Positions 24,896-38,256 of a stretch of DNA of 64,000 nt are shown here, in pieces. The position numbers and the translations under genes are program-made. The notes under the pieces are model-generated. The model did not search any database and was not told where the DNA came from. It was given only the letters and a program-made list of their open reading frames with translations. Source of the stretch: Pantoea rodasii (GTDB lineage: Bacteria; Pseudomonadota; Gammaproteobacteria; Enterobacterales; Enterobacteriaceae). Position 1 is the first letter of the stretch; the number at the start of each line of letters is the position of its first letter. The DNA lies in NCBI RefSeq assembly GCF_002095465.1, contig NZ_MLFP01000086.1, positions 62,001 to 126,000 of the forward strand, in the 5' to 3' direction.

Positions 24896-25248
24896 CCGCC
24901 GGATAAGACGCTAAGGCTCAATCTGGCCTTCACTATCGTGCCCTTTTGAACAAAACTCACTGAAGCTTCAGAGCAGGCGGGTGACGTTCAGGGGCGGGCA
25001 ATCCGCAGCGCTGAACGTAATGAGTCTGCCAGGAGAGCACGCATGGATGCGGGCGAAAGGCGGGGCGGCACACGATGTGCCATCCCCGCCGTTCCGTCAG
25101 GCAGACGAATGAAGTGAAGGTACCGCGCAGCGGCGCGAGGACCGCCCGCCCCTGAACGGCACCAGACTGCGTTATCATCCGTCAGCTTAACTGACGATCA
25201 TTACGCACCTGGTGCGCCCTTACTGTTATCTACATCAATTAACGTGAG
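24896..25248. other. 353-bp intergenic region with structured repeat copy A
   Basis: No gene is seen. About half of the space is one copy of the structured repeat described separately (24985-25158), followed by a single tail unit with GGCACCAGAC. The rest separates the ABC ATPase from the convergent fghA end. Confidence 0.6.
24985..25158 (+). repeat. Structured repeat, copy A
   Basis: A 15-bp perfect closing stem pairs 24985-24999 (CGTTCAGGGGCGGGC) with 25144-25158. Inside are CGCATGGATGCG (25040-25051), a long hairpin GGCGGGG...CCCCGCC (25059-25065/25084-25090) capped by GGCACA-CGA-TGTGCC, and the conserved 3' block GGTACCGCGCAGCGGCGCGA (25119 onward). The core is clearly homologous to copy B at 37234-37410, but the closing stem differs in sequence. 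Similar GC-rich palindromic repeats are common in enterobacterial intergenic DNA; I cannot assign a family name. Confidence 0.8.
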
Positions 25249-33946: not shown

Positions 33947-35465
33947 ATGGCCAGTGAGAATCCGACCGCACAGCGAGAATATCTGCTGGAGATGACGAAT
34001 GTCTCGAAATCATTTCCAGGGGTGAAAGCCTTAGATAATGTGAATTTGAAAGTGCGGCCGCACTCCGTCCATGCCTTAATGGGCGAAAACGGTGCCGGAA
34101 AATCCACATTATTAAAATGCCTGTTTGGCATTTATAAAAAAGATACGGGGAGCATCCTGTTTCAGGGTGAAGAGATTGATTATAAAAGCTCCAAAGAAGC
34201 GCTGGAAAATGGCGTGTCGATGGTGCATCAGGAATTAAACCTGGTCTTGCAACGCAACGTGATGGATAACATGTGGCTTGGCCGCTATCCACGTAAAGGC
34301 GTGTTTGTCGATCAGGATAAAATGTATCGCGATACCAAAGCGATCTTTGATGAATTAGATATTGATATCGATCCGCGCGATAAGGTCGCCAATCTTTCTG
34401 TTTCGCAAATGCAGATGATTGAGATTGCCAAGGCGTTCTCCTATGACGCAAAATCGTCATCATGGATGAACCGACTTCGTCGCTGACCGAAAAAGAAGTG
34501 AACCACCTGTTCACCATTATCCGTAAGCTGAAAGATCGTGGCTGCGGCATTGTGTATATCTCGCATAAAATGGAAGAGATTTTCCAGCTGTGTGATGAGA
34601 TTACTATTTTGCGTGACGGGCAGTGGATCGCCACCCAGCCGCTGGAAGGGCTGGATATGGATAAGATTATTTCCATGATGGTGGGCCGTTCACTGAACCA
34701 GCGTTTCCCTGACAAGACTAACGTGCCGGGCGAAACCATCCTTGAGGTGCGCCATTTAACCTCGTTGCGTCAGCCGTCGATTCGCGATATCTCCTTCGAC
34801 TTGCGCAAAGGTGAGATTCTTGGCGTAGCGGGATTGGTGGGCGCTAAACGTACCGATATCGTTGAAACCCTGTTTGGTATCCGCGAGAAGTCAGGCGGCA
34901 CCATTAAACTGCACGGTAAAACGATCAATAATCACAGCGCCAATGAAGCCATTAACCACGGCTTTGCGTTGGTGACGGAAGAGCGTCGTTCAACCGGGAT
35001 TTATGCCTATCTGGATATTGGATTTAACTCGCTTATTTCCAATATTAAAAATATAAATCCAGCCTTGGCCTGCTCGATAATAAACGCATGAAAAGTGATA
35101 CCCAGTGGGTGATTGATTCGATGCGCGTGAAAACGCCAGGTCATCACACTCAAATTGGTTCGCTTTCCGGTGGTAACCAGCAAAAGGTTATTATCGGTCG
35201 TTGGTTATTAACCCAGCCTGAAATTTTAATGCTGGATGAACCGACGCGCGGTATTGATGTTGGCGCTAAGTTTGAAATTTATCAGCTTATTTCCGAACTG
35301 GCGAAGAAAGAGAAGGGCATCATTATTATTTCTTCTGAAATGCCAGAGTTGCTGGGGATTACCGATCGTATTTTAGTGATGAGTAATGGCCTGGTAGCGG
35401 GCATTGTCGAGACCAAAACGACCTCGCAGAATGAAATCCTGCGTTTAGCGTCATTACACCTTTAA
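33947..35465 (+). CDS. mglA: MglA, double ATPase of the galactose ABC importer, frameshifted twice as read
   Basis: MglA powers galactose import through MglC. The first domain has [16 protein letters not shown] and runs to SYDAK, where an A run at 34450-34453 lacks one A; adding it gives [15 protein letters not shown]. The second domain runs to NIKNINP at about 35060, where another missing base breaks the frame; repair continues [17 protein letters not shown], then [15 protein letters not shown] and [16 protein letters not shown]. Repaired length is 506 residues, exactly that of E. coli MglA. Neighbours mglB and mglC are intact, so sequence error is the likely cause. The second domain reads GLVGAKRTD where a canonical Walker A would be, as is usual in sugar ATPases of this class. 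Confidence 0.92.
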
Positions 35466-35483: not shown

Positions 35484-36494
35484 ATGAAAGCGACTACTAA
35501 AAAGAATGCGCTAACCTGGTTAAAAGAGGGCGGCATCTACGTTGTCCTGTTGGTACTGCTGGCTATTATTATTTTCCAGGATCCGACGTTTTTAAGTTTG
35601 ATGAACCTGAGTAACATTCTGACCCAATCTTCAGTGCGTATTATCATCGCGCTGGGCGTGGCCGGTTTGATCGTCACGCAGGGTACTGACCTGTCAGCCG
35701 GTCGTCAGGTCGGTTTGGCTGCGGTGGTTGCGGCTACCCTGCTGCAATCCATGGATAACGCCAACAAGGTGTTCCCACATCTGGATACCGTTCCGATTCC
35801 ACTGGTGATCCTGACCGTGTGCATCATTGGTGGCGTGATTGGTCTGGTGAACGGCGTGATCATTGCTTATCTGAAGGTGACGCCGTTTATCACCACATTG
35901 GGCACCATGATTATCGTTTACGGCATTAACTCGCTGTATTACGACTACGTAGGCGCATCACCGGTGGCAGGTTTTGACACTGGCTTCTCCACCTTCGCTC
36001 AGGGCTTCCTGCGTTTCGGTGATTTCAAGCTATCGTTCATTACCTTCTACGCGTTTATTGCCATCATTTTCGTCTGGATTCTGTGGAACAAAACGCGCTT
36101 CGGTAAGAATATCTTTGCCATCGGCGGTAACCCGGAAGCCGCACGCGTGTCAGGTGTTAACGTGCCGTTGAACCTGATTCTGGTGTATGCGTTGTCAGGT
36201 GTGTTTTACGCCTTCGGCGGGATGCTGGAAGCGGGCCGTATCGGTAGCGCCACCAACAACCTCGGTTTTATGTATGAACTGGATGCGATTGCGGCCTGTG
36301 TGGTGGGCGGCGTGTCGTTTGCCGGTGGTGTAGGTACCGTTGCAGGCGTGGTGACCGGTGTGATTATCTTTACCGTCATTAACTACGGTTTGACCTACAT
36401 CGGCGTGAACCCTTACTGGCAGTACATTATCAAGGGCGGCATTATCATCTTCGCCGTTGCACTGGATTCACTGAAGTACGCACGTAAAAAATAA
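35484..36494 (+). CDS. mglC: MglC, galactose ABC importer permease
   Basis: The 336-residue inner-membrane permease of the BPD_transp_2 type has the same length as E. coli MglC. Segments GLIVTQGTDLSAGRQVGLAA, KVTPFITTLGTMIIVYGI and NPEAARVSGVNVPLNLILVY are typical of sugar permeases of this family. It ends the mglBAC operon, 18 bp after mglA, and is followed by a clear terminator. Confidence 0.96.
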   Translation: MKATTKKNALTWLKEGGIYVVLLVLLAIIIFQDPTFLSLMNLSNILTQSSVRIIIALGVAGLIVTQGTDLSAGRQVGLAAVVAATLLQSMDNANKVFPHLDTVPIPLVILTVCIIGGVIGLVNGVIIAYLKVTPFITTLGTMIIVYGINSLYYDYVGASPVAGFDTGFSTFAQGFLRFGDFKLSFITFYAFIAIIFVWILWNKTRFGKNIFAIGGNPEAARVSGVNVPLNLILVYALSGVFYAFGGMLEAGRIGSATNNLGFMYELDAIAACVVGGVSFAGGVGTVAGVVTGVIIFTVINYGLTYIGVNPYWQYIIKGGIIIFAVALDSLKYARKK

Positions 36495-36522
36495 GACTTA
36501 GCACACAGCAAAACATCACTGC

Positions 36523-36560
36523 AAAAGGCTGCCATTTTATGAATGGTGGCCTTTTTATTT
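36523..36560 (+). terminator. Terminator after mglC
   Basis: AAAAGGC..CCATT at 36523-36535 pairs with AATGG..GCCTTTTT around 36542-36555, with a TG/TG internal mismatch, followed by a T-rich tail. It closes the mgl operon. Confidence 0.85.
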
Positions 36561-36574
36561 TTGTAGGTTGCTGA

Positions 36575-36601
36575 GGGCTGAGGGCAAGGGCCAAGGGCGG
36601 G
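36575..36601 (+). other. Five-G-tract run, possible G-quadruplex
   Basis: GGG triplets start at 36575, 36582, 36588, 36595 and 36599, separated by 1 to 4 bases. This meets the simple G3-N1-7 rule for an intramolecular quadruplex on the plus strand. It sits between the mglC terminator and repeat copy C. Confidence 0.5.
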
Positions 36602-36614
36602 TGCGGTGAGGGCT

Positions 36615-36812
36615 CAAAGCCCCTCTGCTGCTGCCGGGCAGTCCTCGCGCCGCTGACGCGGTGCCCTCGGCTTCCACGTCGTGCCTACGGACCGTTCGGG
36701 TAAGGCCATCCAGGCCAACCCGAACTGCCAGCCGCATCCATGCGACTGGCTCCTGGCCCAACGTAAAAGCCTTAGCGCTGCGGATAGCCCTTGCAGCAGC
36801 AGAGGGGCTTTG
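36615..36812 (-). repeat. Structured repeat, copy C (inverted)
   Basis: The closing stem is a 20-bp perfect inverted repeat: 36615-36634 (CAAAGCCCCTCTGCTGCTGC) with 36793-36812. Inside, read on the minus strand, are the same blocks as in copies A and B: CCGCAGCGCT, a CGCATGGATGCG hairpin extended by GCCAG/CTGGC (36727-36750), a hairpin GTTCGGGT/ACCCGAAC (36694-36701/36718-36725) in place of the GC stem of A and B, and the conserved block GGCACCGCGTCAGCGGCGCG (36641-36665 region). Stem sequences differ from A and B but pairing is kept. Confidence 0.75.
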
Positions 36813-37050
36813 GCCTCAAACGTTGTGCCCATTTTTTCAAAAATATGCGGCTTCTGCGGATAGCCCTTGCAGCAGCAGAGGAGCTTTGGCCTCAAACGTT
36901 GTGCCCGTTTTTTCAAAAATATGCGGCTTCTGCGGATAGCCCTTTCAGCAGCAAAAAGCTATGGTCTCAAACGTTGTATTCGTTTCTTCTGCGGATAGTC
37001 TTTTAAGCAGGAGAGGGCTATGTTCCCAAACGTTGTGCACGTTAATTGAA
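36778..37050. repeat. Degenerate tandem array of about 76-bp units
   Basis: Units start CTGCGGATAG at 36778, 36854, 36930 and 36989. The first two are 76 bp and differ at only two positions; the third is about 59 bp and the fourth about 60 bp and more diverged. Each contains an AGCAGCAGAGG-GCTTTGG-type block and CAAACGTTGTG. The first unit's block is the 5' arm of repeat copy C, so the array repeats that arm and its flank. More diverged remnants (for example TAGCCCTTGCAAG at about 37147) continue to about 37200. Confidence 0.75.
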
Positions 37051-37233
37051 CAGATGCTGTACTTTTTGCAGATGGCTTTTGCGGTGGTAAAGAGAGAAAG
37101 CAACATCGTTGTGCCTGTCTTGAGACCAAATGCACGGCATCCGAGCATAGCCCTTGCAAGTGTTCGACTTTGGCCTGAGGCTGCGTGTCCTTTTTTAACA
37201 GCACGCAATAAAGTTTAGGAGCTGGCTGGTGTT

Positions 37234-37410
37234 GCTTTGGGGGCAGGCATTTCGCAGCGCTGAACAGAGTGAGGATGCCAGGATAGCCCGCATGGATGCG
37301 GGCGGAAGGCGGGGCGGCACATGGATGTGCCATCCCCCGCCGTTCCGTAAGGCAGACGAACGGCGTGAAGGCACCGCGCTAGCGGCGCGAGGACCGGCAG
37401 CCCCCAAAGC
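37234..37410 (+). repeat. Structured repeat, copy B
   Basis: The closing stem pairs GCTTTGGGGGC (37234-37244) with GCCCCCAAAGC (37400-37410). Inner hairpins are GCCCGCAT-GG-ATGCGGGC (37286-37303), GGCGGGG/CCCCGCC (37308-37314/37335-37341) capped by GGCACAT-GG-ATGTGCC, then the conserved block GGCACCGCGCTAGCGGCGCG (37370 onward). The core is collinear with copy A. Confidence 0.8.
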
Positions 37411-37506
37411 GACACCAGACAGCGTAATCACAGCAGTCGAAAGCGACACCAGACAGCGTTATCGCAGTAGCCTGAAGCGGCACCAGACGGTGTTATCACT
37501 GCAAAC
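37406..37506 (+). repeat. Three tandem units of about 34 bp after copy B
   Basis: Units AAAGCGACACCAGACAGCGT... begin at 37406, 37440 and 37475; they share RGCGRCACCAGAC and GTWATC and end in CAG-type sequence. The first overlaps the 3' arm of copy B. Copy A has a single unit of this kind after its closing stem (GGCACCAGACTGCGTTATC), so the tail belongs to the element and has been multiplied here. Confidence 0.75.
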
Positions 37507-37524
37507 TCAGCGGCTAAAAAACAC

Positions 37525-38256
<732 letters not shown>

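Follow-up and report, generated by a model that had tools for sequence, protein, structure and literature searches.

A variable tandem array of an RNA-stem arm in a probable IS4-type MITE of Pantoea with two divergent TwoAYGGAY modules

TwoAYGGAY (RF01731) is an orphan RNA family described in 2010, with two GGA-loop hairpins on a closing stem (PMC2864571; PMC4333381; PMC11661157); a link to CsrA was proposed in PMC4333381, and the available parts of these three papers give no tested function for the family and make no mention of its mobility. Among bacterial MITEs, BrickBuilt of Porphyromonas gingivalis contains a 23-nt minisatellite, according to the accessible text of PMC4596501, and in Coxiella burnetii the MITEs QMITE1 and QMITE2 are the source of small RNAs whose expression was demonstrated (PMC5896051, the available text of which states no relation to TwoAYGGAY). 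REP palindromes, defined by a short palindrome with a REP-associated tyrosine transposase (PMC2817692, as far as available), serve as targets of insertion sequences, of which the IS4-family ISRm22 is named in the accessible part of PMC1525189. The words IS4, Pantoea and Erwinia do not occur in the available text of a review of prokaryotic MITEs (PMC10969869), and the titles and abstract starts of the open-licence PMC literature yielded no report of TwoAYGGAY in mobile elements or of an IS4-type MITE of Pantoea.

We analyzed a window of 64 kb from Pantoea rodasii (positions 62,001-126,000 of contig C86 of genome G000, an assembly of 5.75 Mb in 86 contigs), in which a tandem array lies within an element carrying two modules similar to TwoAYGGAY. 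One module passes the family threshold and the other falls just short of it; unlike the known TwoAYGGAY RNAs, they are arranged divergently within an IS4-type MITE, as a pair, and their closing stem is longer and covarying. The element resembles IS4 (of E. coli K-12, and the elements of Pantoea genomes G074 and G006) in its terminal sequences, in duplications of about 12-14 bp and in its stem-loop targets, but it is a MITE without transposase whose interior consists of two RNA modules. It shares with BrickBuilt a tandem array inside a MITE, although the host and the unit are different, the Pantoea unit being part of an RNA stem and the arrays occurring at few copies; and it shares with the QMITEs a MITE-borne RNA structure, which in Pantoea is predicted from sequence. 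REP-like palindromes as targets and paired inverted modules recall REPs and BIMEs, but the element measures about 550 bp and has IS4-type ends, unlike a REP hairpin, and on size and ends we rejected plain REP/BIME identity. MITEs with minisatellites and MITEs giving small RNAs are known; in the literature searched we found none that combines these traits with an orphan RNA family conserved strand-specifically.

We consider it probable (roughly four chances in five) that the array represents an RNA-stem arm amplified locally and to a variable extent, presumably by slippage or recombination, within an IS4-type MITE with two divergent TwoAYGGAY modules. We document below the structure of the element, the ends and duplications of its other copies, the match to IS4-family elements, filled and empty sites, compensatory as well as strand-specific pairing in both modules, and differences in unit number at this locus.

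The element and its array in the mglC-sanA gap

From left to right, a two-module copy is built of an IS4-type end, module A in leftward sense, a short junction, module B in rightward sense, and another IS4-type end. Table 1 lists the features of the window copy. Module A scored 44.1 bits with RF01731, over the gathering score of 43, and module B scored 41.2 bits, just below it; among the matches listed, the best scores elsewhere in the same genome reach 51.0 bits for B and 44.9 bits for A. By eye, a hairpin like the one after mglC is present a short way in from the left end of the better-preserved copies L010 and L260, where that end is visible, and in the corresponding position in L011 and L014. 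We searched the window copy for a clear end pair or flank duplication and found none, and P. rwandensis and Candidatus Pantoea formicae may keep a worn left end at mglC-sanA (by eye); the window copy is assigned to the element because of its modules and its relatives at the locus. Its seven ORFs matched no Pfam family (E <= 0.01), and a coding role was set aside. In the neighboring mglA (33947-35465), three overlapping ORFs result from two frameshifts near A runs (at about 34.45 and 35.05 kb); since relatives have intact copies, these are either sequencing errors or decay.

Table 1. Features of the element copy at mglC-sanA, and of a further copy, in the 64-kb window
Feature	Position	Strand	Remarks
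Module B with the core of module A missing (further copy, L026)	24937-25177	plus	
Terminator-like hairpin after mglC	36519-36563	plus	stem 36523-36555
Degenerate short tandem repeat, left edge	36568-36601		window version judged by eye
Module A, TwoAYGGAY RNA	36605-36835	minus	Rfam core 36687-36755 (RF01731)
Module A closing stem, left arm	36615-36634		inverted repeat; 3' arm of the minus-strand RNA
Module A GGA loops	36737-36739, 36709-36711	minus	TCC on plus strand
Unit 1	36778-36853		76 bp
Module A closing stem, right arm (within unit 1)	36793-36812		20 nt, 100% complementary to 36615-36634
Unit 2	36854-36929		76 bp; as unit 1 except at two positions
Unit 3	36930-36988		59 bp, diverged
Unit 4	36989-37047		59 bp, diverged
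Remnant of module A right end, entering the A-B junction beside module B	37128-37196		
Module B, TwoAYGGAY-like RNA	37184-37431	plus	Rfam core 37279-37361
Module B closing stem, left arm	37221-37244		92% complementary to 37400-37423
Module B GGA loops	37294-37296, 37323-37325	plus	
Module B closing stem, right arm	37400-37423		inverted repeat

TRF, run on the window with a minimum score of 40, returned six rows, with the 76-bp array at the top (score 344; units 1 and 2 share 97% identity, with two mismatches) and the runner-up at 126. An earlier note on this DNA had described two 76-bp units with two differences, followed by two shorter diverged units and fainter remnants, and both TRF and the coordinates agree with it. 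Units 3 and 4 are 86 and 80% identical to the right end of module A over the aligned part, and the remnant is 77 and 72% identical to reference copies. The same note had read unit 1 as containing one arm of the closing stem without mismatch and unit 2 as containing that arm with one change, which the inverted repeat bears out (100% over 20 nt for unit 1, and 95% for the unit 2 copy at 36869-36888). It had also placed the array at the edge of the element, where our analysis differs: the array sits at the inner A-B junction, and the second half of the element (module B) starts at about 37184. Two more short repeats flank the modules. The one at the left edge is a clean minisatellite of 6-8 bp with 8 to 15 copies in the relatives at this locus (L066-L070). 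At 37406-37503 we observed a second array, a 34-bp repeat of the right arm and tail of module B with 2.9 copies (TRF), whose number varies between genomes.

The left arm of the module A stem had further been proposed to pair with either unit. Both duplexes are indeed stable (-51.4 kcal/mol with unit 1 and -48.4 kcal/mol with unit 2), but when the minus strand of 36600-37060 was folded, the predicted pairing probability of the left arm was 0.98 with unit 1, 0.02 with unit 2, and 0.00 with units 3 and 4, so that the proposal holds for the isolated duplexes and not for the folding model. The spare arms could nevertheless be functional, as alternative 5' arms that compete for one 3' arm and tune the folding of the module A RNA; the one arm change of unit 2, which keeps its pair as G-U in the minus-strand (sense) RNA, speaks for this, but given the predicted probabilities and the range of 0 to 4 units among close relatives we consider it very improbable.

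Copies, ends and target sites

With 40 of 54 initial candidates scored, the P. rodasii genome contains at least 62 matches to the region, grouped by us into at least 27 places, in four forms: compact A+B, long-middle, A-only, and B-only. The compact A-B copies are L010, L011, L016, L022, L023, and L025 (with module A shortened in some), those with a longer middle are L009 (the window copy), L018, L020, and L027, and the others either have a single module or run into a contig end. L012, L015, and L026 have lost one module and keep its feet (by eye), which suggests that they arose from A+B copies by deletion. In L020, an IS4-type end lies mid-copy (at about 1869-1886), as if a second element had inserted and then decayed. 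Eight of the at least 27 places (L016, L025, L029, and L031-L035) are at contig ends, the assembly breaking at these repeats. Element DNA of the window was matched in at least 34 of the 61 genus genomes; the full copy L010 matched 47 plasmid records, all from Pantoea, and had no match in 50,697 phage records, for which reason a phage origin was rejected.

In the single-contig genome G017, seven two-module copies of 537-549 bp have ends like TAATGC..GTCAGTTAAG. Altogether we identified 26 candidate end pairs, a count that retains spurious-looking ones (two for L147 and two for L157), and 12 of them span both modules at 530-602 bp (L010, L054, L061, L147, L149, L151, L155, L156, L158, L169, L173, and L183; the two wider L147 pairs were left out of the 12 as spurious); four further two-module copies with both ends (545-567 bp) are found in G021 and G034. 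The end pattern, allowing one mismatch, matched in 8 of 10 Pantoea genomes, and the reversed pattern, used as a control, in 0 of 10. A flank-duplication score of at least 4 was obtained for 17 of the 26 pairs and for 10 of the 12 two-module pairs, compared to 11% in a control that combined left and right flanks of different copies, a figure that runs high since a palindrome is common to many targets; the nine pairs without a good duplication include the two-module L054 and L158. Perfect duplications of 12-14 bp flank L010, L147, L151, L156, L177, L179, and L181. The last three (698-699 bp) are from G027, whose elements of 697-699 bp have IS4-type ends and duplications but yielded only part of one module.

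These ends match those of IS4-family elements. IS4 of E. coli K-12 has the ends TAATGCCGATCAGTTAAG and TAATGCCAGTCAGTTAAG and a 12-bp duplication (by eye). In the genus, we found eight open copies of IS4-family elements in G074 (the protein being NCBIfam NF033592), one in G006, and one in two pieces in G020; where the ends were read (three G074 copies, G006, and G020), they are TAATGCTTGTCAGTTAAG and TAATGCCGATCAGTTAAG, and the MITE has ends of both types as well. An InsG-like match was present in 10 of 61 genus genomes, and a search of the P. rodasii genome itself for an InsG-like or DDE_Tnp_1 match found none. Thus the better-preserved copies have IS-like ends, duplications, an autonomous partner with the same ends, and both filled and empty sites, and the window copy, the one tested for this, contains no transposase. 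From its IS4-type ends, its mostly duplicated flanks, and the filled and empty plasmid sites (below), we conclude on sequence grounds that the element is an IS4-type MITE, of which the window copy has no clear ends left. Separately, L248, L250, L251, L252, and L258 are 134-401 bp long with IS4-type ends and no module match (E <= 1e-5); we take them to indicate a broader group of such MITEs in the genus.

The targets of the MITE are often REP-like palindromes or terminator hairpins, with insertion in the loops, and some of the IS4-family elements of the genus likewise sit in palindromic targets. For example, L260 lies in the loop of the terminator hairpin between MCP and ugpC, with about 9 bp duplicated (by eye), while the same gap is empty, with the terminator hairpin intact, in L263 of P. 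agglomerans; the empty form also occurs in L267 (P. vagans C9-1) and L268 (Pantoea sp. Lij88), in L265 and L266 the copy has an internal deletion, and in L264 the gap is occupied by other DNA. The P. agglomerans plasmid site represented by NZ_CP134738.1 (219245-219798) occurs as full, about 170 and about 310 bp shorter, empty, and other-DNA alleles. Two back-to-back TwoAYGGAY modules on a countable mobile element, filled or empty in related strains, offer natural knock-outs and a dose series with which the role of the RNA can be studied. Among the 49 sites whose flanking ORFs were called, the flanking genes are convergent at 31, co-directional at 16, and divergent at 2 (with 13 more loci undetermined and four G026 loci without a module match); convergent sites make up 14 of 19 in G000, 9 of 13 in G017, 4 of 8 in G009, 4 of 6 in G027, and 0 of 3 in G004. 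As a background, 7 of 49 neighboring long-ORF pairs in the window are convergent.

RNA-sense conservation of the modules

Module searches across 78 loci gave 123 hits (74 to B and 49 to A), many of them partial. The 44 B and 30 A hits that satisfied the coverage limits were aligned, all of them matched in the Rfam sense. The consensus has 62 pairs in B and 60 in A, and changes on both sides that preserve the pair were observed at 23 of the 62 and 22 of the 60 pairs, respectively, among related sequences. If a structure is kept as an RNA of one strand, one-sided changes should yield G-U rather than A-C pairs. In the sense direction, the ratio of G-U to A-C was 108:8 cells in B and 40:0 in A (30:6 and 16:0 when counted by pairs), with the sequences related and the events not independent; when folded in antisense, the ratio was 43:33 cells (8:20 pairs) in B and 3:17 cells (2:11 pairs) in A. 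GGA is retained in 138 of the 148 loops of the 74 modules: in 30 of 30 for both loops of A, and in 43 of 44 and 35 of 44 for the first and second loops of B, so that nine of the 44 B copies have a second loop without GGA; the full AYGGAY word is present in only part of the 148 loops. The G-U bias and the retention of GGA favour a function as RNA, with A read from the minus strand and B from the plus strand.

The element could also be a plain selfish MITE, whose stems are kept solely as DNA hairpins or by transposition, with no cellular role of an RNA and with an array that is hairpin slippage. A scan of 36450-37600 for sigma-70-like promoters found none, several copies are the deletion derivatives described above, and arrays are rare away from mglC-sanA, all of which would suit this explanation; but neither the excess of G-U over A-C (108:8 and 40:0) nor the retention of GGA in loops whose neighboring positions vary is expected of a DNA-only hairpin, and we consider it a real possibility, though clearly a less probable one than conservation as RNA.

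What such an RNA may do is suggested, more weakly, by its loops: the GGA loops of the modules point to putative CsrA binding, and the P. rodasii genome has a csrA gene. With the modules pointing outwards, a transcript running on from the gene on either side would include one of the two TwoAYGGAY RNAs in sense orientation. The MITE, sitting in terminator loops between mostly convergent genes, might then act as a mobile decoy that works in either orientation, with read-through from either side yielding one RNA that titrates CsrA; this reading is rather unlikely, and if it were true, the free CsrA of a cell would be set by copy number and read-through.

The family extends beyond the element. Matches to RF01731 (E <= 0.001) were found in at least 35 of 60 genomes, P. 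rodasii included (at least 29 over the cut-off), and, among the matches listed, in 0 of 14 control genomes; in the GTDB order, at least 86 of 295 genomes and at least 22 of 99 genera have matches (at least 66 genomes over the cut-off), with at least eight matches in genome G316 of the same family. At 21 TwoAYGGAY loci outside Pantoea there was no convincing IS4-type end pair, the one loose pair (at L239) having 3 and 4 mismatches of 18, and IS4-type carriage outside Pantoea was set aside. We observed there (L236/L244, G184/G165, and others) several TwoAYGGAY copies on one strand, a few hundred bases apart, without convincing IS4-type ends.

Unit number and history of the array

The nearest named relatives by MglC (99% each) are P. 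rwandensis, Pantoea sp. alder81, M004 (a strain named Enterobacter cancerogenus), Ca. Pantoea formicae, and Erwinia sp. S63. We surveyed 80 mglC-sanA loci, 12 of them without sanA, and found element sequence in 5 of the 68 named gaps (L066-L070); four further gaps repeat named ones with the same sequence. The window has four units, G074 and M004 three each, P. rwandensis, Ca. P. formicae, and S63 one each, and alder81 none. S63 has one whole unit and the start of a second (by eye) and has module B deleted, and alder81 has both cores deleted. The earlier note had expected unit number to vary between strains; it does vary, from 0 to 4, in a comparison between species and not strains of one species. 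The other repeats of the element vary as well, with 2.9 copies of the 34-bp repeat behind module B in the window and 8.4 in M004, and with different copy numbers of the 6-8 bp repeat before module A between genomes. A hairpin arm beside such an element can therefore amplify and vanish within a group of related species.

The assembly might have produced units 1 and 2 as an artificial duplication, given that it consists of 86 contigs, that it breaks at other copies of the element, and that the nearby mglA has two frameshifts. However, there are two mismatches between these units, which are located within a contig of 830,902 bp, and three units are found at the same locus both in M004 and in G074; since the latter genome is a single contig, there is hardly any likelihood of an artefact.

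The arrays differ in how their units are related. In the window, the 60-bp cores of units 2, 3, and 4 are 96, 81, and 77% similar to that of unit 1, and in M004 those of units 2 and 3 are 83 and 71% similar, so that similarity falls steadily away from module A in two of the three arrays; in G074, unit 3 (98%) is more similar to unit 1 than is unit 2 (88%). The earlier note had explained such a gradient by repeated outward duplication from the edge of the element. The window and M004 gradients are what that would give, but with a gradient in only two of three arrays outward growth is not supported; the array is located at the inner junction of the two modules, and in each of the three arrays units 1 and 2 have a common, lineage-specific 3′ half, which points to homogenisation or re-duplication, under either of which it would be expected. 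We therefore consider outward duplication improbable.

Under the preferred reading, local amplification of a stem arm within the MITE, the right arm of the module A stem and some junction DNA would have been duplicated in tandem, giving the 76-bp unit, with replication slippage or unequal recombination adjacent to the long hairpin as the likeliest mechanism; units would then have been gained, lost, and partly homogenised within each lineage. Unit 1 would stay intact because it forms half of the stem, and the later units would be spare copies that decay. Both the possible function of the RNA and the growth of the repeat are made testable by this element.

In the 78 loci, with the six genomes of mglC-sanA entered as separate loci, we counted 17 arrays within element spans (38.3 kb) and 11 outside them (190.8 kb). 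The mglC-sanA locus, in six genomes, accounts for 12 of the 17, so that array growth is not a general property of the element; no arrays were found in the G017 copies. Elsewhere in the P. rodasii genome, arrays are seen in L018 (5.4 copies of 41 bp) and L027 (1.9 copies of 82 bp), and a further one is in L176 (2.1 copies of 166 bp).
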